Positions 13,501-53,103 of a DNA stretch of 64,000 nucleotides are shown here, in pieces. Both the position numbers and the translations under genes were made by a program. The stretch comes from Maribacter sp. ACAM166. Its GTDB lineage: Bacteria > Bacteroidota > Bacteroidia > Flavobacteriales > Flavobacteriaceae. The notes below the pieces were generated by a model. That model searched no databases and was not told the origin of the DNA. It saw only the letters and a list, made by a program, of their open reading frames with translations. Each line of letters begins with the position of its first letter. The first letter of the stretch is position 1. The stretch spans positions 62,001 to 126,000 of the forward strand of contig NZ_VAUW01000010.1 in assembly GCF_005771495.1 (NCBI RefSeq), written 5' to 3'.

Positions 13501-14263
13501 TTCCCAATTAGCAAATAATTTCTACCACTATAGGTTTCCCTAATAAAAGTATTGGATCAGAAAACTGAAAATATATAGGCCTTTGCTTACAAACCATTTA
13601 GAATGGTATGAACTCTCTCCTTTGAGGGTAATCGCGGGTCTTTGGTTGACTGTCATTTCTGAAATTTTTGAATCCCCTTACCGCAGACAAAAATGTTTCC
13701 TATACAAGGTCTTACGCCATTTCTTTCGATGATGTTTTATGAAAAGCCACGCTAAAAAGCTCATCGGCATGTAAATTGAACCAATTTTCAATAATTTAAT
13801 TCTTCGTATAGGTCTAAAATATCAAATATAGACCTTAATGAAAGATGGGGTGAAATTGCCATTTGGCCTTTATGAACTTTTTATTAAAAACAAGATAATC
13901 AACAAGTGGCTTCATACCAAAAAGAGGGTGAAACCACCAACATAAGGCATGTCTTACTGAATATCAAGTCAATACATCAATTCCAATAAACTTTCGTTTT
14001 ATGGAAAACTTATTAAGTTGAAATAAAAAATTCAAGTTGATGCTCTTTAACTAATAAAATTTTTTAGATTTTTATAAAACTATCCAGTTCGGTCCTACTT
14101 GATTAAAATCCAAAAAATCGACTATAAAAGACAGCAATATTCCTTTTTAAAGGAATGGGATTCCGGTAGATTTTATTTTAGACTAAGAAAAACGGAAACT
14201 ATAGTCATTCTGACAACCCCTGAATTTTATAAAATTTTAGTAATTTTACTATTATTCGAATTC
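13501..14263. other. Gene-poor stretch upstream of Crp/Fnr gene
   Basis: No intact gene. The left part may hold the rest of the DUF3179-like relic on the minus strand. At 13870-13965 a minus-strand frame (HALCWWFHPLFGMKPLVDYL) looks like a membrane-protein remnant but cannot be named. The 10-mer CAGTTCGGTC occurs at 13275 and again near 14086. The regulator's promoter should lie close to 14264. Confidence 0.4.
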
Positions 14264-14971
14264 ATGACAGCCGAGAATAAACATTACCAAAGATACCTAC
14301 AAGCGCTAGCGCAATCCTCTTTTTTAAAGGATTCTAGTGCCGAGTCCCTTGAGCGGCTTTTAAGCCAAATGATAGTGGAACGGTGGAACGTCAAAAGTTT
14401 TAAAAATAGTTTAGAGGTAGCTACCACCTTTCACTTTATCGTTTCCGGTAGACTTAAGGTGTTCAAGTCAAATCCCGATTCTGGAAGAGAACACACCGTC
14501 TTTGTTTTATCAAATGGAGATGTTTTCGATGTTCTATCCCTCTTCGATGCAGAACCACACGATGTATACTGGGAAGCCTTTGACGTATTGGAAGTCTTAA
14601 AAATTCCTATGGATCAAATGCGTTCTTGGATTAATGATTATCCAGCAATGCATAAGGCTATTTTGTACTATTTAGGGGAGCGTATGCGACAACTTATGGA
14701 TGTTGCCACCGATGTAACTCTTCATAGTACCTTGGTACGCCTTGCCGCTTTACTGCTTAAAAATATAAATGGCGAAACCCGAAAATTGGAATTAATCAAT
14801 AATTTGCCCAACGATGAAATTGCAGGTATGATAGGCACTACAAGATCTGTAGTTAGCAGACATATTCAAGAATTAAAACGTTGCGGGGCTATCTCAGTAA
14901 GCCGTAAAAAAATCAACATTAAGAATCTAGAAATACTTTTATCGATTGCTGAGGAAAAATATCTTCCCTAG
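14264..14971 (+). CDS. Crp/Fnr-family transcription regulator
   Basis: Cytoplasmic regulator with an N-terminal cyclic-nucleotide-binding-like beta barrel (about 10-125) and a C-terminal winged helix whose recognition part reads NDEIAGMIGTTRSVVSRHIQ. It lacks the four-cysteine set of Fnr, so an Fe-S oxygen sensor is unlikely; it could bind heme or another ligand. I choose the ATG at 14264 (MTAENKHYQRYLQAL) because the 55 codons upstream begin with TTG and do not look like a protein. Length 235 aa is typical. It lies far from the denitrification genes but could regulate them. That link is speculation. Confidence 0.9.
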   Translation: MTAENKHYQRYLQALAQSSFLKDSSAESLERLLSQMIVERWNVKSFKNSLEVATTFHFIVSGRLKVFKSNPDSGREHTVFVLSNGDVFDVLSLFDAEPHDVYWEAFDVLEVLKIPMDQMRSWINDYPAMHKAILYYLGERMRQLMDVATDVTLHSTLVRLAALLLKNINGETRKLELINNLPNDEIAGMIGTTRSVVSRHIQELKRCGAISVSRKKINIKNLEILLSIAEEKYLP

Positions 14972-37585: not shown

Positions 37586-39058
37586 TTAATTACTATTTCG
37601 AACTGCTTTTACCATGGATGGTACTACTTCTTTTTTATCATTGCCCCAACTATTATATACGTATGTCAGCACGTTTGCCACTTCATCATCAGACAACGTC
37701 TGTGCGGTCATAATACTATTATACTTTTCACCATTAACTGTGATTTCACCTGTTTTACCATGTAAAATTATATCTATCGCTCTGTTAACATCTGCGTTAA
37801 GGTAATCGGATTTTGCCAAGGGTGGAAACGCATTAGGTATTCCTTGTCCTTCTGCTTGATGACAGGCAAAGCAGGTCTGCATATACGTCTGTTTACCGAA
37901 CTCCATTCGTTCTGCCATCGATTTGGCAGGTATTTCTGATTCGGGTAAAGCATCCGAAGAAGGCATTTTTTGTATACCACCACCTTCGGGTAGGTAAATA
38001 TCATCTCGCAACTCACCCGAATACACAGCTTCGTTCTCATCGCCCTGAACTTTGAGCATTCCCAATGCACCTTTATTGAATGCCCTGAAAATAGAGTGGT
38101 CTACTAAAATGAAAGTTCCCGGCACTTCTACCTTAAACTCAACAATCGTAGCGCCCCCAGCCGGAATCAAAGTGGTCTGTACATTTTCATTGATTGAACT
38201 TCCACCTTCAATATGAACCCTATCAAATATTTCCCCGATTACATGAAAGGACGATACGAGATTAGGACCACCGTTGCCTACATAAAGCCGTACAGTTTCA
38301 CCAACATTGGCGGTAATGGCATTATCGCCTGTAAGTGCGCCTACTTTACCATTAAATACCACATAGTCAGCTTTTTCATCAACTGCTTTTTGCATATCGA
38401 AAGGCTGCAATCCACGATCACCATTGTTGCCTTTGGTATAAAAATCGCCTTGCATGATATAATATTCCTTATCCACATCTGGCAGGCCTTCTTCAGGCTC
38501 TACTAAAATTAGACCGTACATTCCGTTTGCAATGTGCATCCCCACGGGAGTCGTAGCACAATGGTATACATAAAGACCAGGATTTAGTACTTTAAACGAA
38601 AAAACTTTTTCATGACCAGGAGCCACAAAAGAAGATTCGGCACCACCACCAGGACCTGTAACGGCATGAAGATCTATGTTATGAGGTAATTTATTATCAG
38701 GATGATTTTTTAGATGAAATTCTACCTCATCTCCAACCTTGGTTCGGATAAAACTGCCAGGTACTGTTCCTCCAAATGTCCAGTACACATATTTTACCCC
38801 ATTGGTCATTTCACCTTCCTGTTCAAGGATTTCCATATCTACAATCAATTTTTTGGCCTTTCTCTTACCGGTTGGCGGAGGTACATTTGGTGGTGAAGTC
38901 AATGTGGCAATCATTTCTACCGTAGCAGGAATTTCCATACTACTGGTAAATTTACTTTCCTCTTTTTTATTGTTTTTACATGATAAAAATGTTATAAAAA
39001 TTACTATGGCAAAAAGTAACCTTGTAGACTTAAGGATACTAAATTGATATGTTTTCAT
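37586..39058 (-). CDS. nirK: Copper nitrite reductase with C-terminal cytochrome c
   Basis: Periplasmic enzyme reducing nitrite to nitric oxide. A lipoprotein signal (FITFLSCKN) leads into two cupredoxin domains. Type 1 copper ligands: His126, Cys167, His175, Met180 (in [10 protein letters not shown] and [16 protein letters not shown]). Type 2 ligands: His131, His166, His321, with catalytic Asp129 and His272 (FHVIGEIFD). Residues about 385-475 form a fused cytochrome c with heme site CFACH (396-400) and a Met ligand region ([14 protein letters not shown]). At 490 aa it is the NirK-cytochrome c fusion form. Its promoter carries a large palindrome (39104-39153) and the shared dyad. Confidence 0.96.
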
Positions 39059-39091
39059 ACGTATGGTTTTAATTATTTCTAAAAATTTTGT

Positions 39092-39136
39092 TAAAAATAG
39101 ATGTTTTAAATACGCAGTAATATGACAATTGTCATA
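39092..39136 (-). promoter_or_regulatory. nirK promoter with dyad TATGACAATTGTCATA
   Basis: Minus-strand -7-like element TATTTTTA at 39099-39092. The dyad TATGACAATTGTCATA (39121-39136) is centred at 39128.5, 29.5 bp upstream of the first base of the -7 element, so about -43 from the start of transcription, the position of a class II Crp/Fnr-type activator. Confidence 0.65.
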
Positions 39137-39153
39137 TTACTGCGTATTTAAAA
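39104..39153. repeat. 50-bp perfect palindrome upstream of nirK
   Basis: TTTTAAATACGCAGTAATAT and GACAA are mirrored exactly by the other 25 bp. It holds the dyad TATGACAATTGTCATA in its centre, lies 46 bp before nirK and 7 bp after the end of the porin gene, and could act as terminator of the porin and operator of nirK at once. Confidence 0.95.
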
Positions 39154-39159
39154 TGATGA

Positions 39160-40416
39160 TTAGTTATTGTATAGAATTGGTGTAATCGTTACCATAACCC
39201 ATAACCAATTATTGGTATTACCGTCAAAATTATTTTTGATATATTCCATCCCTTCCGCAGCGAAAAGATGAGAATAACCACCCGATAGCGAAATATTCTT
39301 ATCCATAGTATATACATAAGAAAAATCTGCTTCTACACCCAATTGATTGGAAACATTTGGTGCGATTTCAGAAGGGGAACTAAAATTATGCAGTGCCATT
39401 GTCACATTAGAGTGCTGGTCTACAGCAAGTATAGTCTTGAAATAAACATCCCACAGTCCAACATTTTGGTTGTGATTGCCTACATAGAAATAGTCCATTA
39501 AACCATTGAATTTATGATTGGTGCCATAAAACGGGGTAAAGGCATCATTCTTACCGTTCTCTGGCGCGCCACCGTTGTTACCGCTTAGTAGTTCTGTGCC
39601 AAGGGTGAATTTCAGAGTTGGTGAAGATTCATAATTCGCTTCTAGTGCTAATAAATATGCATTGATATCATTATTGGCAACATCTTTCCCCAATTGATAA
39701 TAGAGATTCGACATAAAATCTATTTTTCCGAAAGAATACTTCAAATGGCCGCCGAGCGTCTGAGAATATCGAGTTTCATTGTTCTCAGAATTGGTGTTAT
39801 CAATAAATTGCATCCCATTGTTCAACACTAGAAAACTTGCTTGTAAGTCTTTAAAATCTTTATGTAACCAAGCGTATTGCATGCTTTTATAAGTTCTTGT
39901 GTTTCTTAAGGTTGTTCCGGTTAAATTTTCGGCATCTTGATTAAACGCAACACCTAAATCGAATCTAAATTTTTCATGTGAAAACTTTATAAGTGCAGCA
40001 TCGTGGCTACGGGCTTGTTGCGCCCATCCGACATTTCCGAAAATACGGTGGTCGTCATAGAGAATCTCTTGACGCCCCAGCTTAAGCGAAAAGTCTTTGT
40101 TTAATAGAATTTCTCCCCAAGCCTGATGAATACTAAGTCCGCTGTTGTCGGCTATGTTCAATTGTGGTACGTCTCCCCAGACCCGAACATCTTGTAGGCT
40201 CAGGTAAAAATTTAGTTTTTCGTTAGCATATCCTAAATTTAATCGTGTACGTTGTGAAACAAAAGCTGCGGGATCTGTCTCATCGGGGAAAAGAGTCTTA
40301 AAACCATGTCGGTATTCAAAACGGGGGCGTAGTTCGGTATCAACGGTAAATTGTGCATTTACACAGTGAATTAAAAACATTAAAAATAATGGTAGAAGGA
40401 TTTTGATTGGCTTCAT
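39160..40416 (-). CDS. Alginate-export-family outer-membrane porin
   Basis: 418 aa with signal peptide (LLPLFLMFLIHCVNAQ) and an outer-membrane beta-barrel of the alginate-export/AlgE-like group: TELRPRFEYRHGFKTLFPDE, RTRLNLGYANEKLNFYLSLQ, SIHQAWGEILLNKDFSLKLG RQEI, and GWAQQARSHDAALIKFS. Such porins are found next to anaerobic-respiration genes in Bacteroidota, where they may admit nitrite or nitrate. It is transcribed towards nirK (gap 101 bp with palindrome). A promoter with the shared dyad lies before it. The exact solute is inference. Confidence 0.82.
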   Translation of the reverse strand: MKPIKILLPLFLMFLIHCVNAQFTVDTELRPRFEYRHGFKTLFPDETDPAAFVSQRTRLNLGYANEKLNFYLSLQDVRVWGDVPQLNIADNSGLSIHQAWGEILLNKDFSLKLGRQEILYDDHRIFGNVGWAQQARSHDAALIKFSHEKFRFDLGVAFNQDAENLTGTTLRNTRTYKSMQYAWLHKDFKDLQASFLVLNNGMQFIDNTNSENNETRYSQTLGGHLKYSFGKIDFMSNLYYQLGKDVANNDINAYLLALEANYESSPTLKFTLGTELLSGNNGGAPENGKNDAFTPFYGTNHKFNGLMDYFYVGNHNQNVGLWDVYFKTILAVDQHSNVTMALHNFSSPSEIAPNVSNQLGVEADFSYVYTMDKNISLSGGYSHLFAAEGMEYIKNNFDGNTNNWLWVMVTITPILYNN

Positions 40417-40463
40417 TAATAGAAAATATCTTGGAATTCGTACGATTAAACACTTGGTCGATT

Positions 40464-40508
40464 CAAAATTCGGTATAAAAAAAATCTAGACATATGACTT
40501 TCATCAGG
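40464..40508 (-). promoter_or_regulatory. Porin-gene promoter with partial dyad
   Basis: The dyad half TATGA-N6-TCAGG (40493-40508) has centre 40500.5. The minus-strand -7-like element GAATTTTG begins at 40471, again 29.5 bp away. The match to the nirK and nos dyads is weaker in the second half. Confidence 0.5.
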
Positions 40509-40617
40509 TTATTTGGATAATTATAATTGAGAACTATTATATCGTTCAGCTACTTTGTAAGTGGAAGAATAATTGATTTACTGGTTTTATAATTAAATTG
40601 CATCCAAAATAATAAGA

Positions 40618-41829
40618 TTGAAAACCCACGTAAAAATTGCGTTTACCTATTTTATACTGGCAGCTGGTTTTGGCATTGTTTTACGGTCCATTCATTCTTT
40701 TGAAATACCGATTAATTATAAATTTATTGTGCATACCCACTCTCATATAGCACTTTTAGGCTGGGCGTATGTAGCATTGACGACGTTAATCCAAACATTA
40801 TTTTTTCAAAGTGACGTACAGAATAAAAAGTATCTAAAAATATTTTGGTTTACTGAAATCACCTTAATCGGTATGCTATTGACCTTCCCTTTTCAGGGCT
40901 ATGCACTGTTTTCTATTATTTTTTCTACCCTGTTTTTGTTCGCATCCTATTGGTTTTTTTGGTTTTTCACAAAATACATCAAACAGCAATTCAAACAAAC
41001 GAATTCCTACAAATGTATTAAAGCGGCTCTGTGGTTCATGGTACTTTCTAGTATTGGACCGTGGACACTTGGCATCATTATGAGCACGTTAGGGGCGGAA
41101 TCGATATGGTATAGATTAGCTATTTATTTCTACCTTCATTTTCAGTATAACGGCTGGATGGTCTTGGCCCTGTTCGGGTTGTTCCTTTACTTGCTTGAAC
41201 AATACCAGATCGTACTAGACAAGAAGACGTTTAAAAAGTTCTTTTGGAGCATCAATATCGGAATTTTACTTTCATTTTTCCTATCTACCCTTTTTACGCA
41301 TCCACCAATAATTCTTAATATTTTGGGAGCTATTGGGGCCATATTACAATTGACTGCGTTCGGGTTCTTGATAAAACTGACAGTCCGTTTAATAGAAAAG
41401 CAAAAGATATTTTTTTCTTCTTTACAAATAGGAATGTTAAAAAGCATTGCGTTTATATTTTTTATTAAAATGGCTCTCCAGTTACTTACCGCACTCCCCT
41501 ATTTTGCCAATCTGTCTATCACCTATTTAGATTTCACCATAGGGTATTTACATTGGACATTTTTAGGAGCGATAACAATCAGCCTATTTTTTTTACTTGA
41601 CTATTTTAGATTACTGAAAATTTCAACAAAAGGGTATTACATATATGTATTTGGGTTTGTATTGACCGAAATACTTATTTTTTACAAAGGGGTAGCCGGT
41701 TGGCAGGGGTTTTCTCTTTTTGAAAATTATTATGACACTTTGGCAATTGGGAGCGCATTAATACCCTTTAGCTTGATTTATATGCTTGTTTGGAACAAAA
41801 AACATTCTGACTATGTACCTGACTGTTAA
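40618..41829 (+). CDS. Multi-spanning membrane protein, possibly heme/NO-linked
   Basis: 403 aa, about twelve hydrophobic segments, TTG start at 40618 (no ATG fits). Histidines cluster in FIVHTHSHIALLGWAYV (39, 41, 43), FYLHFQYNGWM and GYLHWTFLG, as in heme-copper oxidase-like or NnrS-like proteins. The location next to nirK and nosZ, divergent from the porin, supports a role in NO or copper handling. I do not recognise an exact family; the assignment rests on histidine pattern and context. Confidence 0.6.
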   Translation: MKTHVKIAFTYFILAAGFGIVLRSIHSFEIPINYKFIVHTHSHIALLGWAYVALTTLIQTLFFQSDVQNKKYLKIFWFTEITLIGMLLTFPFQGYALFSIIFSTLFLFASYWFFWFFTKYIKQQFKQTNSYKCIKAALWFMVLSSIGPWTLGIIMSTLGAESIWYRLAIYFYLHFQYNGWMVLALFGLFLYLLEQYQIVLDKKTFKKFFWSINIGILLSFFLSTLFTHPPIILNILGAIGAILQLTAFGFLIKLTVRLIEKQKIFFSSLQIGMLKSIAFIFFIKMALQLLTALPYFANLSITYLDFTIGYLHWTFLGAITISLFFLLDYFRLLKISTKGYYIYVFGFVLTEILIFYKGVAGWQGFSLFENYYDTLAIGSALIPFSLIYMLVWNKKHSDYVPDC

Positions 41830-42392
41830 ACTTCATCATCCTTTAAAACTATGAAAACCATAACCTAATTAAAAAGCGTGTGGTAAGCCCAACGACTTTC
41901 AAATGTCACATTAGCGTGTTTGGCTAATGTATCTTTTTTATTGTTGTCCATTTTATCAGAAATACGCCCTGCCGTTTTTTCAACATGATAAGAACCTCTT
42001 AATTAGACACTTTACCTCAAGCTTCACCAACTTTCCAGAAGTATTTAATTTCATCAGAATCTTTTTCCAATTGTATTTTTCACCTCAATCATAGGTACTA
42101 CCCAAAGCTTGGTCTTTCATATATATCGTTTCTATTATTATTTTCAGTGAATCCAATTCTTATTTTTTGACTGACCTAATGCTGAAGTTTAATACTACAT
42201 AGGATTATGTGTAAGAATAATTTGTATCATAATTCCAATTATTACCAACGTGTTATATAACAACTAAAGCAGTCATTTAACGGTCTCATATTCCGGTTCA
42301 TATCATTCACGTTTTATTGGTGATTTCATCCAATCATCTTGGCACTCGATATATATTGGCAAAAAGAAGTTGAGATACCCCTGAAAATGATT
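41830..42392. other. 560 bp with a minus-strand coding remnant
   Basis: No intact gene. On the minus strand around 41870-42010 a frame reads YHVEKTAGRISDKMDNNKKD, TLAKHANVTFESRWAYHTLF-stop, with broken continuation to about 42120 (MKDQALGSTYD). It looks like the tail of a decayed gene I cannot name. Confidence 0.5.
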
Positions 42393-42823
42393 TTAGTAGT
42401 AAAAAAACACATCTGCCTTTTTAATATAGTGGAACAAATCGTAATTGGTAATGCTTGTGAGAATTTTTAAGATGTTGCTCTTACTAGGTCCGACCATTTC
42501 ATGTAGCATACAAGGGCTGCTAATATTGCGCTGGCTTATTCCTAAGACATAAAAATTTATACGTTTCTCACCATCTATAATCCTAACAATATCCAAAATA
42601 AATTGCTTTTGTTCTTCATCGGTCAAGAAAAAATCGCCTTTTGGACCTCTGATTGAGGAAATGATATTGTGCCTGGAAAGCTCCTGCAACAATTTGCCAA
42701 GATATGCTTCGGATACATGCATGGTGCTATAACTACCCTTAACCATCATTTTTTATCCTTCATAGAATTCATATAAAAGAATAGTACTGCCTTATCTGCA
42801 TATTTTGAGGAGTTGAAAAGCAT
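42393..42823 (-). pseudogene. Rrf2-family regulator, frameshifted
   Basis: A first frame from ATG 42823 reads MLFNSSKYADKAVLFFYMNS, MKDKK-stop; the overlapping second frame from 42749 reads MMVKGSYSTMHVSEAYLGKL, LQELSRHNIISSIRGPKGDF and continues to 42393. Together they are an Rrf2 winged helix broken by one frameshift at an A6 run (stop and start overlap as ATGA). In the cluster-binding region only one cysteine remains (SSPCMLHEM) where Rrf2 regulators normally have three, so Fe-S or NO sensing is probably lost. It faces away from the nos operon, where a working NO sensor would be expected. Confidence 0.8.
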
Positions 42824-42879
42824 TTTTTTGGTACGATTAAAATCAGTGTACACTATAAAAGAGATGTTTTTGTCCTTAA

Positions 42880-42924
42880 TATGATACATATCATATTTAT
42901 AGTAAAGCCCAGAAACTATTTTTG
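42880..42924 (+). promoter_or_regulatory. nos-operon promoter with dyad TATGATACATATCATA
   Basis: The dyad at 42880-42895 (centre 42887.5) lies 29.5 bp before TATTTTTG (42917-42924), a good TAnnTTTG -7 element. Same geometry as at nirK and the porin, 24 bp before the cytochrome c start. Confidence 0.7.
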
Positions 42925-42947: not shown

Positions 42948-43454
42948 ATGAAAATCAATGTTTTATTATCAGGTATCATGTTGGCTTTACTAGTAGTAGG
43001 GTGTGGTGGTAAGGAAGAAAAGAAAAAAGATGGGTTTAGTGTAGACCGTTCAAAAGCTACAGAAAATTCTGTAGCAGCTGTTCCAGAATCTGATGCCGTT
43101 CCTGCATCACAACGTATTACGCTTGATGATAAAGGTGTTGGGCAGATTACGTCTATAACCCTAGACGCTGAAATCAACACTGAAATGGCTGCAGCTGGAA
43201 GTGAAATCTATAAAATGAACTGTACAGCTTGTCATAAATTAGATAAAAGGTTCATTGGTCCATCTCCAAAAGGAATTCTAGAAAGAAGGAGTCCCGAATG
43301 GATTATGAACATGATTCTAGACCCTAAGCTAATGACAGAACAAGACCGCTGTGCCAAAGATTTGTTGATAGAATTTAATGGGGCTGCCATGGCAAATCAA
43401 AATCTTACCGTAGCGGAAACCCGATCGATATTAGAATATTTCAGAACCCTATAA
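42948..43454 (+). CDS. Cytochrome c lipoprotein of the nos cluster
   Basis: 168-residue lipoprotein (LLVVGCGGKEE) with one class I cytochrome c domain: heme motif NCTACHKLDKRFIGPS and the axial Met probably in GAAMANQNLT. A Lys/Glu-rich linker (about 22-80) separates lipid anchor and heme domain. Bacteroidota clade II nos clusters commonly begin with such a cytochrome, the likely electron donor to NosZ. The nos promoter with its dyad lies directly upstream, so it is the first gene of the operon. Confidence 0.9.
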   Translation: MKINVLLSGIMLALLVVGCGGKEEKKKDGFSVDRSKATENSVAAVPESDAVPASQRITLDDKGVGQITSITLDAEINTEMAAAGSEIYKMNCTACHKLDKRFIGPSPKGILERRSPEWIMNMILDPKLMTEQDRCAKDLLIEFNGAAMANQNLTVAETRSILEYFRTL

Positions 43455-43559: not shown

Positions 43560-44141
43560 ATGAAAACAACCAAATTGAGATTCCTATTCGGTTCGTTTTT
43601 GATGCTTTTTTTAATCATCAGCTGCAAAAATGAGACTAAGACCACAAACGCGAAAGCTTCTGCAGAGACTTCAATAGTAGCAGATACGGAGAATAAAGGA
43701 CAAGCCTTTATTGAAGACGATGGTTCAGCGCCCAATGTTTTACAAATAGCTATTGGTTCACCTGATCATACCACATTGGTAGCTGCAGTACAAGCTGCTC
43801 AATTAGAGAATGTTTTAGTAAACGCTGGCCCATTAATGGTTTTTGCACCTACTAATGCTGCTTTTGATGCGCTGCCTGATGGTACGGTTGAAAATTTATT
43901 GAAACCAGAGAATAAAGCAGCTTTAGCAAATATTTTGAAACATCATGTTACTGCGGGTAATTATTCTAAAGATTTTCTGAAAAAATTTAAAAAATTAGGT
44001 CAGGCAAATGATCAAAACACAACAGTTGAAATAATAGGTGATGATGTCTACGTAGGTGGTGCTAAAATTATTGCAAGTATTCCTGCTGGAAATGGAATTG
44101 TACATGTTGTAGATAAAGTAATACTACCTCCAACACAGTAA
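43560..44141 (+). CDS. Fasciclin-domain lipoprotein
   Basis: 193 aa, lipoprotein signal (MLFLIISCKNE), then one fasciclin (FAS1) domain: DHTTLVAAVQAAQLENVLVN, MVFAPTNAAFDALPDGTVEN, LLKPENKAALANILKHHVTA, ending GNGIVHVVDKVILPP (H1 and H2 boxes). FAS1 domains mediate adhesion or protein contacts, and they recur between cytochrome c and nosZ in Bacteroidota nos clusters, where the role is unknown. Same strand, 38 bp from nosZ. Confidence 0.9.
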   Translation: MKTTKLRFLFGSFLMLFLIISCKNETKTTNAKASAETSIVADTENKGQAFIEDDGSAPNVLQIAIGSPDHTTLVAAVQAAQLENVLVNAGPLMVFAPTNAAFDALPDGTVENLLKPENKAALANILKHHVTAGNYSKDFLKKFKKLGQANDQNTTVEIIGDDVYVGGAKIIASIPAGNGIVHVVDKVILPPTQ

Positions 44142-44179: not shown

Positions 44180-46138
44180 ATGAAAAATTATAAAAATTAT
44201 TTAATGGCACTATTGGGTTCTACGATACTCTTTAGTTGCGGTAACCAAAATGGGGAAGGTTCCTCAAGTGGTGCACTTAATTCTAGTAATGCAGAAAAAG
44301 TGTATGTAGCACCAGGTGAACAAGATGAGTTTTACGCTTTTATGTCAGGTGGGTATAGTGGAAATCTTACCGTGTATGGTTTGCCTTCAGGACGAATGTT
44401 TAAGGAGATTCCTGTATTCTCTCAATTTCCAACTTCTGGTTATGGCTATTCTGAAGAAACAAAGCCTATGTTAGAAACTTCATTTGGATTTGTACCCTGG
44501 GATGATTCCCACCACCCTGATATTTCGCAAACAAATGGCGAACTTGATGGTAGATGGATTTTTATTAATGGTAACAATACTCCACGTATTGCTAGAATCG
44601 ACCTTCAAACGTTTGAGACCGCTGAGATAATCGAGGTACCCAATAGTGCAGGGAACCATAGTTCTTCTTTTATTACAGAGAATACAGAATATGTAGTAGC
44701 AGGAACTCGTTTTTCTGTTCCTGTTCCGCAACGCGATATGCCTATAAATGAATATAAAGGTAATTTTAAAGGTGCCTTATCATTTATCTCTGTTGATCCC
44801 GATAGTGGTCACATGGCTATTAAATTTCAGATATTAATGCCTGGTTTTAACTATGATTTATCACATCCTGGACGTGGAAAATCTCATGGTTGGTTTTTCT
44901 TTACTACCTATAATACTGAAGAAGCTAACTCTTTGTTAGAAGTTAATGCATCACAGAATGATAAAGATTTTATTGCGGCAATTAATTGGAAAAAAATTGA
45001 AGAGTATGTAAATAATGGTGGTGGAACAAAAATGCCTGCTAATTATGCGCATAATGTTTATAGTGATGAAACACATTCCGCAACTTCGACAATGGTAAAA
45101 GAAGTATTAACAGTTGACCCAACAAAGATACCAGGTGCTGTTTACTTTTTACCAACACCAAAATCTCCACATGGTTGTGATGTTGATCCATCTGGAGAAT
45201 ATATCATTGGAAACGGAAAATTATCAGCTGATCTTACCGTTCACTCATTTGATAAAATGATTGCAGCTATTGAAGGTAAAAAGTTTGATGGTGAAGCGTA
45301 TGGTATTCCAATTTTAAAATTCGAAGATGTTTTAGCAGGTACTGTGAAAAGTGGTGGCTTAGGTCCATTACATACCGAATTTGACGGAAAAGGAAATGCC
45401 TATACAACTTTCTTTATTTCTTCTGAAGTAGTAAAATGGAAATTAGGTACTTGGGAAGTAATTGATAGAAAACCTACTTTTTACTCTGTAGGCCACTTAA
45501 TGATACCTGGTGGAAATTCAAGAAAACCATTTGGTAAATATGTAGTAGCGATGAACAAAATCACAAAAGACCGTTACTTACCTACAGGTCCAGAGATGGA
45601 ACATTCAGCGCAATTGTATGATATTACTGGAGATAAGATGGAGTTGATCTATGATTTCCCAACACATGGTGAACCACATTACGCTGCTGGTATACCTGCT
45701 GAACTAATAGCACCAAAATCTAAGAAAATCTATAGACTTGCAGACAACAAAAATGAGTATGCAACACTAACCCCAGCTGATGCTCGTGTAGTGCGTGATG
45801 GAAAAGATGTGCATATTTATATGTCAACAATTCGTAGCCATTTTACACCTGATAATATTGAAGGCGTTAAAGTAGGAGATAAAGTTTATTTCCATATTAC
45901 AAATCATGAACAAGATTTTGATGTACCACATGGTTTTGCTATGATTGGACAAAACACTTCAGAATTGTTAGTGATGCCTGGCCAAACCAAAACTTCTATT
46001 TGGGAACCTAAAAAAGTAGGTGTATGGCCTTTTTATTGTACAGATTTCTGTTCTGCATTACACCAAGAAATGCAGGGTTATGTTAGAGTATCACCAGCAG
46101 ACTCTAATTTAGAACTATCATGGTCTTTAGGAGATTAA
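44180..46138 (+). CDS. nosZ: Nitrous-oxide reductase, clade II
   Basis: Periplasmic copper enzyme reducing N2O to N2. The signal is a Sec lipoprotein type (GSTILFSCGNQNG), without the twin-arginine of clade I, so this is clade II. The CuZ seven-bladed propeller carries histidines in DDSHHPD, AGNHSSS, SPHGCDV, GPLHTEFDGKGNAYTT and EPHYA. The C-terminal CuA cupredoxin has Cys620, Cys624, His628 and Met631 in YCTDFCSALHQEMQGY plus the His of DVPHGFAM. Length 652 aa. A hairpin terminator 34 bp after its stop separates it from the accessory genes. Confidence 0.96.
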   Translation: MKNYKNYLMALLGSTILFSCGNQNGEGSSSGALNSSNAEKVYVAPGEQDEFYAFMSGGYSGNLTVYGLPSGRMFKEIPVFSQFPTSGYGYSEETKPMLETSFGFVPWDDSHHPDISQTNGELDGRWIFINGNNTPRIARIDLQTFETAEIIEVPNSAGNHSSSFITENTEYVVAGTRFSVPVPQRDMPINEYKGNFKGALSFISVDPDSGHMAIKFQILMPGFNYDLSHPGRGKSHGWFFFTTYNTEEANSLLEVNASQNDKDFIAAINWKKIEEYVNNGGGTKMPANYAHNVYSDETHSATSTMVKEVLTVDPTKIPGAVYFLPTPKSPHGCDVDPSGEYIIGNGKLSADLTVHSFDKMIAAIEGKKFDGEAYGIPILKFEDVLAGTVKSGGLGPLHTEFDGKGNAYTTFFISSEVVKWKLGTWEVIDRKPTFYSVGHLMIPGGNSRKPFGKYVVAMNKITKDRYLPTGPEMEHSAQLYDITGDKMELIYDFPTHGEPHYAAGIPAELIAPKSKKIYRLADNKNEYATLTPADARVVRDGKDVHIYMSTIRSHFTPDNIEGVKVGDKVYFHITNHEQDFDVPHGFAMIGQNTSELLVMPGQTKTSIWEPKKVGVWPFYCTDFCSALHQEMQGYVRVSPADSNLELSWSLGD

Positions 46139-50725: not shown

Positions 50726-51073
50726 TCAAAATAAATTGGCGATTATAACAGCACTACTGAATACAACACTTACTATAAGCATGTTAAATGTAATTTTAGA
50801 CTTCAGTTGAGCCAATACCGCTGCATTATAACCCATACAGAGAATAGTAATGAGAAACACAAAGGTCATTTTTACTGCCATTGGCATTTCGTTCATAAGC
50901 AAAAGCATTACGGCGGCCGATCCTAAACAACTTTGTGCTATAATCGCGATTGCGGCATAACCCGTTTGATCTTTTTTGAATTCAGTCAGTACACCATTGT
51001 ACCACTTTAATAGCGGATTTACTCTTTTTTTAGATCCAGAATGTGTCATCGGTATTGTCATTGAATTTTTCAT
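50726..51073 (-). CDS. Small membrane protein, three helices
   Basis: 115 aa (or 107 from ATG 51049) with three predicted membrane helices: AAIAIIAQSCLGSAAVMLLL, AVKMTFVFLITILCMGYNAA, FNMLIVSVVFSSAVIIANLF. No family recognised. The ORF start overlaps the end of the hemerythrin gene by 44 bp; the ATG at 51049 cuts that to 20 bp and is equally possible. Same direction and tight spacing with hemerythrin and ferredoxin suggest one operon. Confidence 0.7.
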   Translation of the reverse strand: MKNSMTIPMTHSGSKKRVNPLLKWYNGVLTEFKKDQTGYAAIAIIAQSCLGSAAVMLLLMNEMPMAVKMTFVFLITILCMGYNAAVLAQLKSKITFNMLIVSVVFSSAVIIANLF

Positions 51074-51500
51074 CGCTATGTATTTTTAGAATTGTTTGTA
51101 ATTGTTCTTCAGTTGCAATCTTTTGAATTTCGTTGAAAAGCACCCGTTCTTCAAAGCGAATATGCTGTTCTAATTCTTCCTCTATTAGGCTCAATGATTT
51201 TGAAGGGCTATCGGTTTCGGCAAAAAGCCGATGCAGCCTTTTATGTTGTGCGAGCGCTTTTTTAATCATTTTATGGTCGTTGCCCAAAATGGGGAAAATA
51301 TGATTTTCCTCTAGCTCAAAATGAGGCACTAGATGTGTAATATAAAACCAGTCCACATATGTTTTGATTCGCTCTTCTGCTATTCCCTTTGAAAATCCTG
51401 TGCGGATTTTCCAACAGAGTAACAAGCCATGATGGTGTTCACGACTTACCCCTTGTAATGCTTGGCTCCGTTTTATGGGCTTGATTTTTTTTAACTCCAT
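51030..51500 (-). CDS. Hemerythrin HHE-domain protein
   Basis: 156-residue four-helix di-iron protein: REHHHGLLLCWKIRTGFSKG, HLVPHFELEENHIFPILGND, HKRLHRLFAE, EELEQHIRFEERVLFNEIQK contain the paired His and Glu ligands of the HHE cation-binding fold. Such proteins bind O2 or NO or repair iron-sulfur clusters. It is 8 bp from the ric gene, so it probably belongs to the same NO-stress unit. Confidence 0.92.
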   Translation of the reverse strand: MELKKIKPIKRSQALQGVSREHHHGLLLCWKIRTGFSKGIAEERIKTYVDWFYITHLVPHFELEENHIFPILGNDHKMIKKALAQHKRLHRLFAETDSPSKSLSLIEEELEQHIRFEERVLFNEIQKIATEEQLQTILKIHSDEKFNDNTDDTFWI

Positions 51501-52668: not shown

Positions 52669-53103
52669 TTAGCGTTTTAAATACGTTAATCCCATTTCGA
52701 GACCTGTAGCCATTTCGTAGAGACTTGTATTTTCGAGCATTTTTCGTAAATCATTACGTATACCTACGAATTTCTCGTGTACAGGACATGGCTTGTCTGC
52801 ATTACATTCTTTTAGACCTAACCCACAGCCAACATATATTTTATCTCCATCGATAGCATTTACGATTTCGCTTAGCATTAACTTATCAATTTTAGTTCTG
52901 TTAATATCAAAACCACCATATGCTCCTTTTACGGAATCAACTATATTATTTTTTGACAAAAGCTGTAAGATTTTTGCTGTAAAGGCTACGGGAGAATCTA
53001 TTTCCTTAGCAATTTCCTTTAAGCTTACCCTCCTACCCTCTAAAGAATTCAAGGCTATGTAGGTAGCTGACCTTATACCGTATTCACATGCTTTTGAAAA
53101 CAT
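52669..53103 (-). CDS. Rrf2-family Fe-S regulator (NsrR/IscR-like)
   Basis: 144 aa. Winged helix with MFSKACEYGIRSATYIALNS, VSLKEIAKEIDSPVAFTAKI and LQLLSKNNIVDSVKGAYGGF, and the three cluster cysteines in GCGLGLKECNADKPCPVHEK. Such regulators sense NO or Fe-S status. Here it sits next to the hemerythrin/Ric/cupin genes, with matching operator-like sites before itself and the cupin. This suggests it represses both and lets go on Fe-S damage. The binding is inferred, not shown. Confidence 0.9.
   Translation of the reverse strand: MFSKACEYGIRSATYIALNSLEGRRVSLKEIAKEIDSPVAFTAKILQLLSKNNIVDSVKGAYGGFDINRTKIDKLMLSEIVNAIDGDKIYVGCGLGLKECNADKPCPVHEKFVGIRNDLRKMLENTSLYEMATGLEMGLTYLKR

Follow-up and report, generated by a model that had tools for sequence, protein, structure and literature searches.

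A dyad at fixed distance from a -7 element in three denitrification promoters of Maribacter sp. ACAM166 and its recurrence at putative low-oxygen promoters

Genes and promoters of the denitrification locus

We analysed a 64,000-nucleotide stretch of the genome of Maribacter sp. ACAM166 (hereafter the window), which carries genes for the reduction of nitrite and nitrous oxide (N2O) together with their promoters. Here, the gene for an outer-membrane porin lies directly upstream of nirK, which encodes a copper nitrite reductase, while the nos cluster on the other strand runs from a cytochrome c gene through a gene for a fasciclin-domain protein to the nitrous oxide reductase gene, nosZ (Table 1). 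Ahead of nirK, the porin gene and the cytochrome c gene, a short dyad lies at a constant distance from a -7-like promoter element, and the same composite recurs across this genome and in relatives within the family Flavobacteriaceae. The shared switch and fixed distance, found at about seventy other promoters, point to a putative family-wide low-oxygen control system.

The dyad centres fall at 39128.5 (minus strand, nirK), 40500.5 (minus strand, porin) and 42887.5 (plus strand, cytochrome c). As claimed in the original prediction, and confirmed on recomputing the coordinates, each of the three dyad centres is separated by an identical 29.5 bp from the first base of its -7-like element. All three dyads match the core TGAYNNNNRTCA (TGAY-N4-RTCA). 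The porin dyad had been described as weaker, but it is an exact match to the core on the minus strand; it is the -7 element of this promoter that is off consensus. Across the window we counted 20 dyad orientations, two of which (nirK and cytochrome c) are followed by TAnnTTT after 23 bp (N23), with the porin site as a near match. The nirK dyad is also the centre of a perfect 50-bp palindrome, which begins a few bases past the porin stop codon and possibly has an additional role as an mRNA-end hairpin.

In a start-mapping study of Flavobacterium psychrophilum, the TAnnTTTG -7 box spans -12 to -5 (PMC9723704). Combined with the 29.5-bp distance, this box would put the centre of the dyad at -41.5, where class II activators bind, by extrapolation across genera within one family; if the -12 to -5 rule holds, transcription is predicted to start near 39087 for nirK, 40459 for the porin and 42929 for cytochrome c.

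Table 1. Features of the window discussed in the text, with positions counted from its first nucleotide.
Feature	Position	Strand	Remarks
nirK promoter core dyad TGACAATTGTCA	39123..39134	-	16-bp form 39121-39136; retrieved by genome composite search
nirK -7 element TATTTTTA	39092..39099	-	23 bp beyond dyad
nirK, copper nitrite reductase with C-terminal cytochrome c domain	37586..39058	-	Pfam Cu-oxidase, Cytochrom_C
Perfect 50-bp palindrome centred on nirK dyad	39104..39153	strand-less	RNA fold -34.5 kcal/mol, z -13.2
Porin promoter core dyad TGATGAAAGTCA	40495..40506	-	
Porin -7-like element GAATTTTG	40464..40471	-	Degenerate; 23 bp beyond dyad
Outer-membrane porin, Alginate_exp family	39160..40416	-	Directly upstream of nirK
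Cytochrome c-nosZ promoter core dyad TGATACATATCA	42882..42893	+	16-bp form 42880-42895; retrieved by genome composite search
Cytochrome c-nosZ -7 element TATTTTTG	42917..42924	+	23 bp beyond dyad
Cytochrome c, nos cluster gene 1	42948..43454	+	Pfam
Fasciclin-domain protein, nos cluster	43560..44141	+	Pfam
nosZ, nitrous oxide reductase	44180..46138	+	Pfam nos_propeller; 80 relatives
Rrf2-family gene, nos-adjacent	42393..42823		Split over two frames
Second Rrf2-family gene	52669..53103		Downstream of nos cluster
Hemerythrin-domain protein	51030..51500		Near second Rrf2 gene
Crp-type protein	14099..14971		

The composite motif across the genome and the family

The motif stressed in the original prediction, TATGA-N6-TCATA, proved to be unenriched by itself: searched for as TATGAYNNNNRTCATA, it gave 19 matches in the window against 14.6 expected (up to two mismatches) and 89 in the genome against 107 for the reversed pattern (up to one mismatch). 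TATGA is one of two flavours of site. The core and its spacing to the -7 element were adopted after this result, the composite being defined as TGAYNNNNRTCA-N23-TANNTTT with the reversed pattern as a control. The 4.92-Mb genome has 73 copies of this composite, 33 on the forward and 40 on the reverse strand, and a single copy of the control. When the spacer behind TGAC-type dyads was left free between 13 and 33 bp, 45 of the 65 matches fell at 23, each of the remaining 20 spacings receiving 0-3; similarly, in 332 kb of stretches selected for containing sites, 222 dyad orientations yielded 68 occurrences of TAnnTTT at N23 and 0-5 at every other offset up to 59. The spacing to the core promoter element is fixed genome-wide at 23 bp and, judged on the sequence, these statistics exclude chance.

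The genes behind 70 of the 73 composites were annotated (the 3 on contig C39 were left out), using gene calls from a simple custom script. A called same-strand frame begins within 600 bp of 65 of them, and two sit inside a called frame by more than 60 bp, each of these two frames being short. Pfam names of the first genes include ccoNO (cbb3 oxidase), HemN, universal stress proteins (12 in one BLAST cluster), BON proteins (a cluster of 5), YtxH and PfkB, as well as pyridoxamine-oxidase-like and glycogen-phosphorylase-like proteins, a glycosyltransferase, an E1 dehydrogenase, ATP synthase alpha/beta, a cation P-type ATPase, a molybdopterin oxidoreductase, thioredoxin and outer-membrane efflux proteins; no Pfam family was found for 9 of the 40 proteins scanned. 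With 71 of the 73 genome copies lying outside the operons for nitrite and N2O reduction, the idea of a regulon specific to these two steps had to be given up. In form this is the commonness at unrelated loci that had been named as speaking against the original prediction, but it is not that of a chance pattern: the genes that come first behind the sites form a coherent set by function (cbb3 oxidase, HemN, universal stress proteins, energy reserves), and therefore indicate a wider low-oxygen regulon. We read it as a putative low-oxygen and energy-stress programme that includes denitrification. In F. psychrophilum, genes for cbb3 oxidase and for heme synthesis are induced when oxygen is limiting (PMC9723704).

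The arrangement is conserved in relatives. Eighty nosZ loci were collected from named genomes, and 77 were retained after exclusion of L124 (no upstream sequence) and of L132 and L133 (too short). The composite was found within 1,500 bp of nosZ on the same strand in 74 of these, and in 71 when the region upstream of the cytochrome c gene alone was scanned; in L138, L141 and L153 a fasciclin gene comes first in the operon, and the composite stands ahead of the whole operon. L143, L145 and L148 lack it, the first two retaining the dyad with an altered -7 element. All 71 cytochrome c composites share a T directly after the dyad and another two bases further on, although the search pattern required neither. 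Over their total of 1.34 Mb, the nosZ loci contain 139 composites against 1 reversed match; 68 lie outside the 600 bp upstream of the cytochrome c gene, among them sites ahead of a HemN-like gene (L136) and around universal stress genes (L141). We also noted that a composite recurs about 5 kb upstream of nosZ, near position 2,700, in L081, L083, L084, L087, L088, L096, L099 and L100, and that the L083 copy precedes genes for a small unknown protein, a TonB-plug protein and a YtkA-like protein.

Orthologues of nirK were identified in 59 of 299 family genomes (that of Maribacter sp. ACAM166 counted), and in 37 of the 59, again including this genome, the composite lies within 700 bp. For ccoNO, 18 of 20 fetched stretches carry the composite and all 20 place ccoNO near an FNR-like gene; a HemN match beside cco was found in one of these 20 stretches, with no site there. 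More generally, 476 composites were counted in the 26 other family genomes of our sample, where the control gave 45 matches, every genome exceeding its own control. Most of the remaining 220 genomes of the phylum sample have 0-5 composites, and some have more (e.g. 20 against 1 in G126).

Candidate regulators and alternative explanations

Nine HTH_Crp_2 matches were found in the genome, one of them inside the window. The protein G000:C114:131848-132543, which has cNMP_binding and HTH_Crp_2 domains, is encoded next to a cation ATPase of the CcoI kind and ccoNO, with HemN further on, and has an FNR type regulator among its best PDB matches (E 4.7e-22). Its orthologues, present in 23 of 27 family genomes, all share four invariant cysteines, residues 8, 11, 57 and 110, three of which match cysteines in FNR regulators of known structure. 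The fourth, residue 57, is a different one, invariant in 23/23; because the classical cysteine set is not matched, we call the protein FNR-like rather than FNR. Its recognition helix reads E-x-x-I-R, not E-x-x-S-R, in the 23 orthologues listed. In all 23 cases (L214-L236), the 500 bp ahead of the FNR-like gene contain a core dyad.

A second kind of regulator fuses receiver, cNMP and Crp domains. This genome has three full copies, each beside a PAS histidine kinase (on C61, C51 and C79), and a fragment on C38; the fusion is present in 16 of the 27 family genomes, and for the adjacent kinases Pfam yields PAS and GAF only. With this genome left out, the mean number of composites per genome is 11.4 where only the FNR-like gene is present (n=11), 13.8 where only the fusion is (n=4) and 26.9 where both are (n=11). 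Core composition and clustering were determined in 9 of the 15 single-regulator genomes (5/11 FNR-like-only, 4/4 fusion-only). In the fusion-less genomes, 9 of 70 sites lie within 20 kb of the FNR-like gene, against 0.72 expected, and where the FNR-like orthologue is missing, 17 of 55 sites lie within 20 kb of a fusion gene, against 0.62 expected. In Maribacter sp. ACAM166, sites on C61, C63 and C51 have C before TGA in 23 of 39 cases and G/C at the core ends, while those at nirK and nosZ and all five on C114 have A/T there.

A stretch of C61, beginning at about 105 kb and reaching 240 kb or further (240-250 kb being unread), stands out by its G+C content, which is about 0.42 (0.39-0.46), as compared with about 0.35 for the genome and for both flanks in the same contig. 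This stretch (L056-L060, L347) carries 28 composites, a PAS kinase, a fusion regulator and numerous genes for universal stress and BON proteins; gene sets related to it, with the G+C content of the host, occur on C51, C63, C66, C79 and C38. Contamination is disfavoured as the origin of the C61 sites, given the flanks of about 0.35 within one contig, and the 43 and 51 composites of the single-contig relatives G134 and G103 also speak against it. The contamination estimate for the genome is 4.58%, and contamination may apply to small contigs.

Taken together, these data suggest a model in which a dimeric Crp/Fnr-family protein would bind TGAY-N4-RTCA centred at -41.5 and recruit RNA polymerase, with the Bacteroidota housekeeping sigma factor, to the -7 element at its spacing of exactly 23 bp. 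The most likely activator of the nirK, porin, cytochrome c-nosZ and cbb3 oxidase promoters would be the FNR-like protein whose gene adjoins the cbb3 genes. It is probably a sensor of oxygen or redox state with an iron-sulfur cluster, and a drop in oxygen would turn on the respiration of nitrite and N2O along with high-affinity oxygen respiration. The sister class, the fusions beside PAS kinases, would probably drive a universal-stress and energy-reserve programme from sites with a GC-richer core and the same spacing. It is because of site flavour and regulator linkage that we infer a role in denitrification for the FNR-like protein. We put the probability of this model as a whole, which is built from sequence comparison, at roughly 0.7.

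Several observations weigh against it. The strict composite is absent from 22 of the 59 nirK genes (10 with the dyad only, 12 with neither). Speaking for the model, in five of these 12 dyad-less cases (G320, G453, G269, G491 and G263) a porin gene directly precedes nirK and itself has the dyad and a TTTG- or TTTC-ending element at N23, as expected for a porin-nirK operon. Among 30 porin loci examined out of matches in 133 genomes (one, L314, having no more than 35 bp of upstream sequence), the strict composite is present at 5 and missing at the other 25: 11 have the dyad only, 9 of these with a TTTG-ending element at N23, and 14 have no dyad at all. The porin -7-like element of the relative G417 has the same letters as here, GAATTTTG. 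For the FNR-like protein, the third FNR cysteine position is unconserved, so that an iron-sulfur cluster is not assured. Furthermore, class II spacing is found at the protein's own promoter in just 2 of the 23 genes, so that at its own gene it seems more likely to act as a repressor, and a dyad by itself is no proof of activation. Finally, the E-x-x-I-R helix is common to both kinds of regulator, so that either might act at nirK and nosZ, and the flavours of site are not cleanly separated, with mixtures on C38, C66 and C79. The original prediction of one class II activator, probably Crp/Fnr-like, is supported at the sequence level in its geometry, at the porin with a degenerate -7 element; this geometry is rigid genome-wide and conserved in relatives, whereas a single activator is doubtful because two regulator kinds share helix and spacing.

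The strongest alternative, which we nevertheless consider unlikely, is that nirK and nosZ are activated by the fusions, under the control of the adjoining PAS kinases, either in place of the FNR-like protein or alongside it. Their helix, their three kinase-paired copies and the composites around fusion genes would suit such a role, but the A/T at both core ends of the nirK and nosZ sites is the flavour of FNR-like-only genomes (54 of 70 sites, as compared with 25 of 55 in fusion-only genomes). In addition, G029 has the FNR-like gene and a composite at nirK, yet no fusion was found in it by search, and no fusion-only genome with nirK was identified. Less probable still is control of the denitrification sites by another Crp/Fnr protein of the genome, which might sense nitric oxide. 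The nine HTH_Crp_2 matches supply candidates (the Crp-type protein of the window, C37, C61:180622 and C114:145106), but their helices, that of the window protein included, differ from E-x-x-I-R, and the composite nearest to the window protein is about 24 kb away.

We give very little credence to an NsrR-like role for the nos-adjacent Rrf2-family gene at the nosZ dyad: an Rrf2 homologue is present in 60 of the 80 nosZ loci, but the copy in this genome is decayed, being split over two frames and missing most cysteines of its L083 relative while the dyad is intact, and the composite also occurs at cco and at dozens of loci where no Rrf2 neighbour was seen. This candidate was rejected. A second Rrf2-family gene downstream of the nos cluster is unbroken over its matched length, and the hemerythrin-domain protein encoded near it is possibly part of a nitric-oxide or iron-repair module. 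Equally remote is the notion that the dyads are chance matches, at odds with the counts and spacings given above, or that the nirK dyad, set in its palindrome just past the porin stop, is merely the stem of an RNA hairpin ending the porin message: a palindrome half-length above 8 was seen at only 2 of the 37 nirK composites, our own (25) and L170 (21), and with a similar palindrome at 1 of the other 36 the hairpin was rejected as a full explanation of the site. The L170 palindrome, in the relative G496, measures 42 bp.

Comparison with known regulatory systems

In the accessible part of PMC8510549, the FNR regulon of Rhodocyclaceae includes nitrite reductase, nitrous oxide reductase and cbb3 oxidase, and MalR-like Crp/Fnr homologues of a Flavobacteriales metagenome-assembled genome are predicted to act in carbon sensing. 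The latter resemble the regulators described here in protein family and bacterial order, but differ in that this part of PMC8510549 attaches no denitrification or cbb3 targets to them. In the literature that we searched, no Flavobacteriaceae FNR or denitrification motif and no control of nirK or nosZ was described, an absence that is weak evidence given the incomplete coverage. Flavobacteriaceae that bear nosZ are candidate N2O sinks, and the sharpness of the composite (73 against 1) would make their low-oxygen regulon predictable from sequence across the family, with testable regulators named. The composite also reveals how a class II activator would be placed relative to the unusual -7 promoter of Bacteroidota.

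The oxygen regulons of proteobacterial FNR and Anr are run by Crp/Fnr-family proteins with an E-x-x-S-R helix, which recognise a TGA-N6-TCA core with TTGAT half-sites at a class II position. The system proposed here would be similar in regulator family, core, targets (cbb3, HemN and denitrification) and class II position. In contrast to FNR and Anr, its half-sites read TATGAY or CTGACC, not TTGAT, the promoter is of the -7/TAnnTTTG type rather than -10/-35, and the FNR-like protein has an E-x-x-I-R helix, lacks the third cluster cysteine and has cysteine 57 as an extra invariant one.

In rhizobia, FixL-FixJ-FixK forms an oxygen cascade of PAS histidine kinase, receiver and Crp-type activator of microaerobic genes. 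The same parts, together with a FixK-like TGACC core, are seen here, and on C61, C51 and C79 a PAS histidine kinase adjoins a receiver-domain activator in the FixLJ manner; unlike in rhizobia, receiver and Crp domain are fused in one protein. We would accept at even odds that a single rigid geometry (TGAY-N4-RTCA, 23 bp, TAnnTTTG) serves the microaerobic and anaerobic life of Flavobacteriaceae, with an FNR-like protein of shifted cysteines for respiration (cbb3, NirK and NosZ) and a FixLJK-like pathway collapsed to PAS kinase and fusion for universal-stress dormancy, much of the latter on a foreign-composition stretch of about 140 kb with its own regulator pair and 28 promoters. The dormancy regulon of mycobacterial DosR includes universal stress proteins, PfkB, a pyridoxamine-oxidase-like protein and a cation ATPase; while regulator family and binding site differ from those found here, the classes of target are similar.

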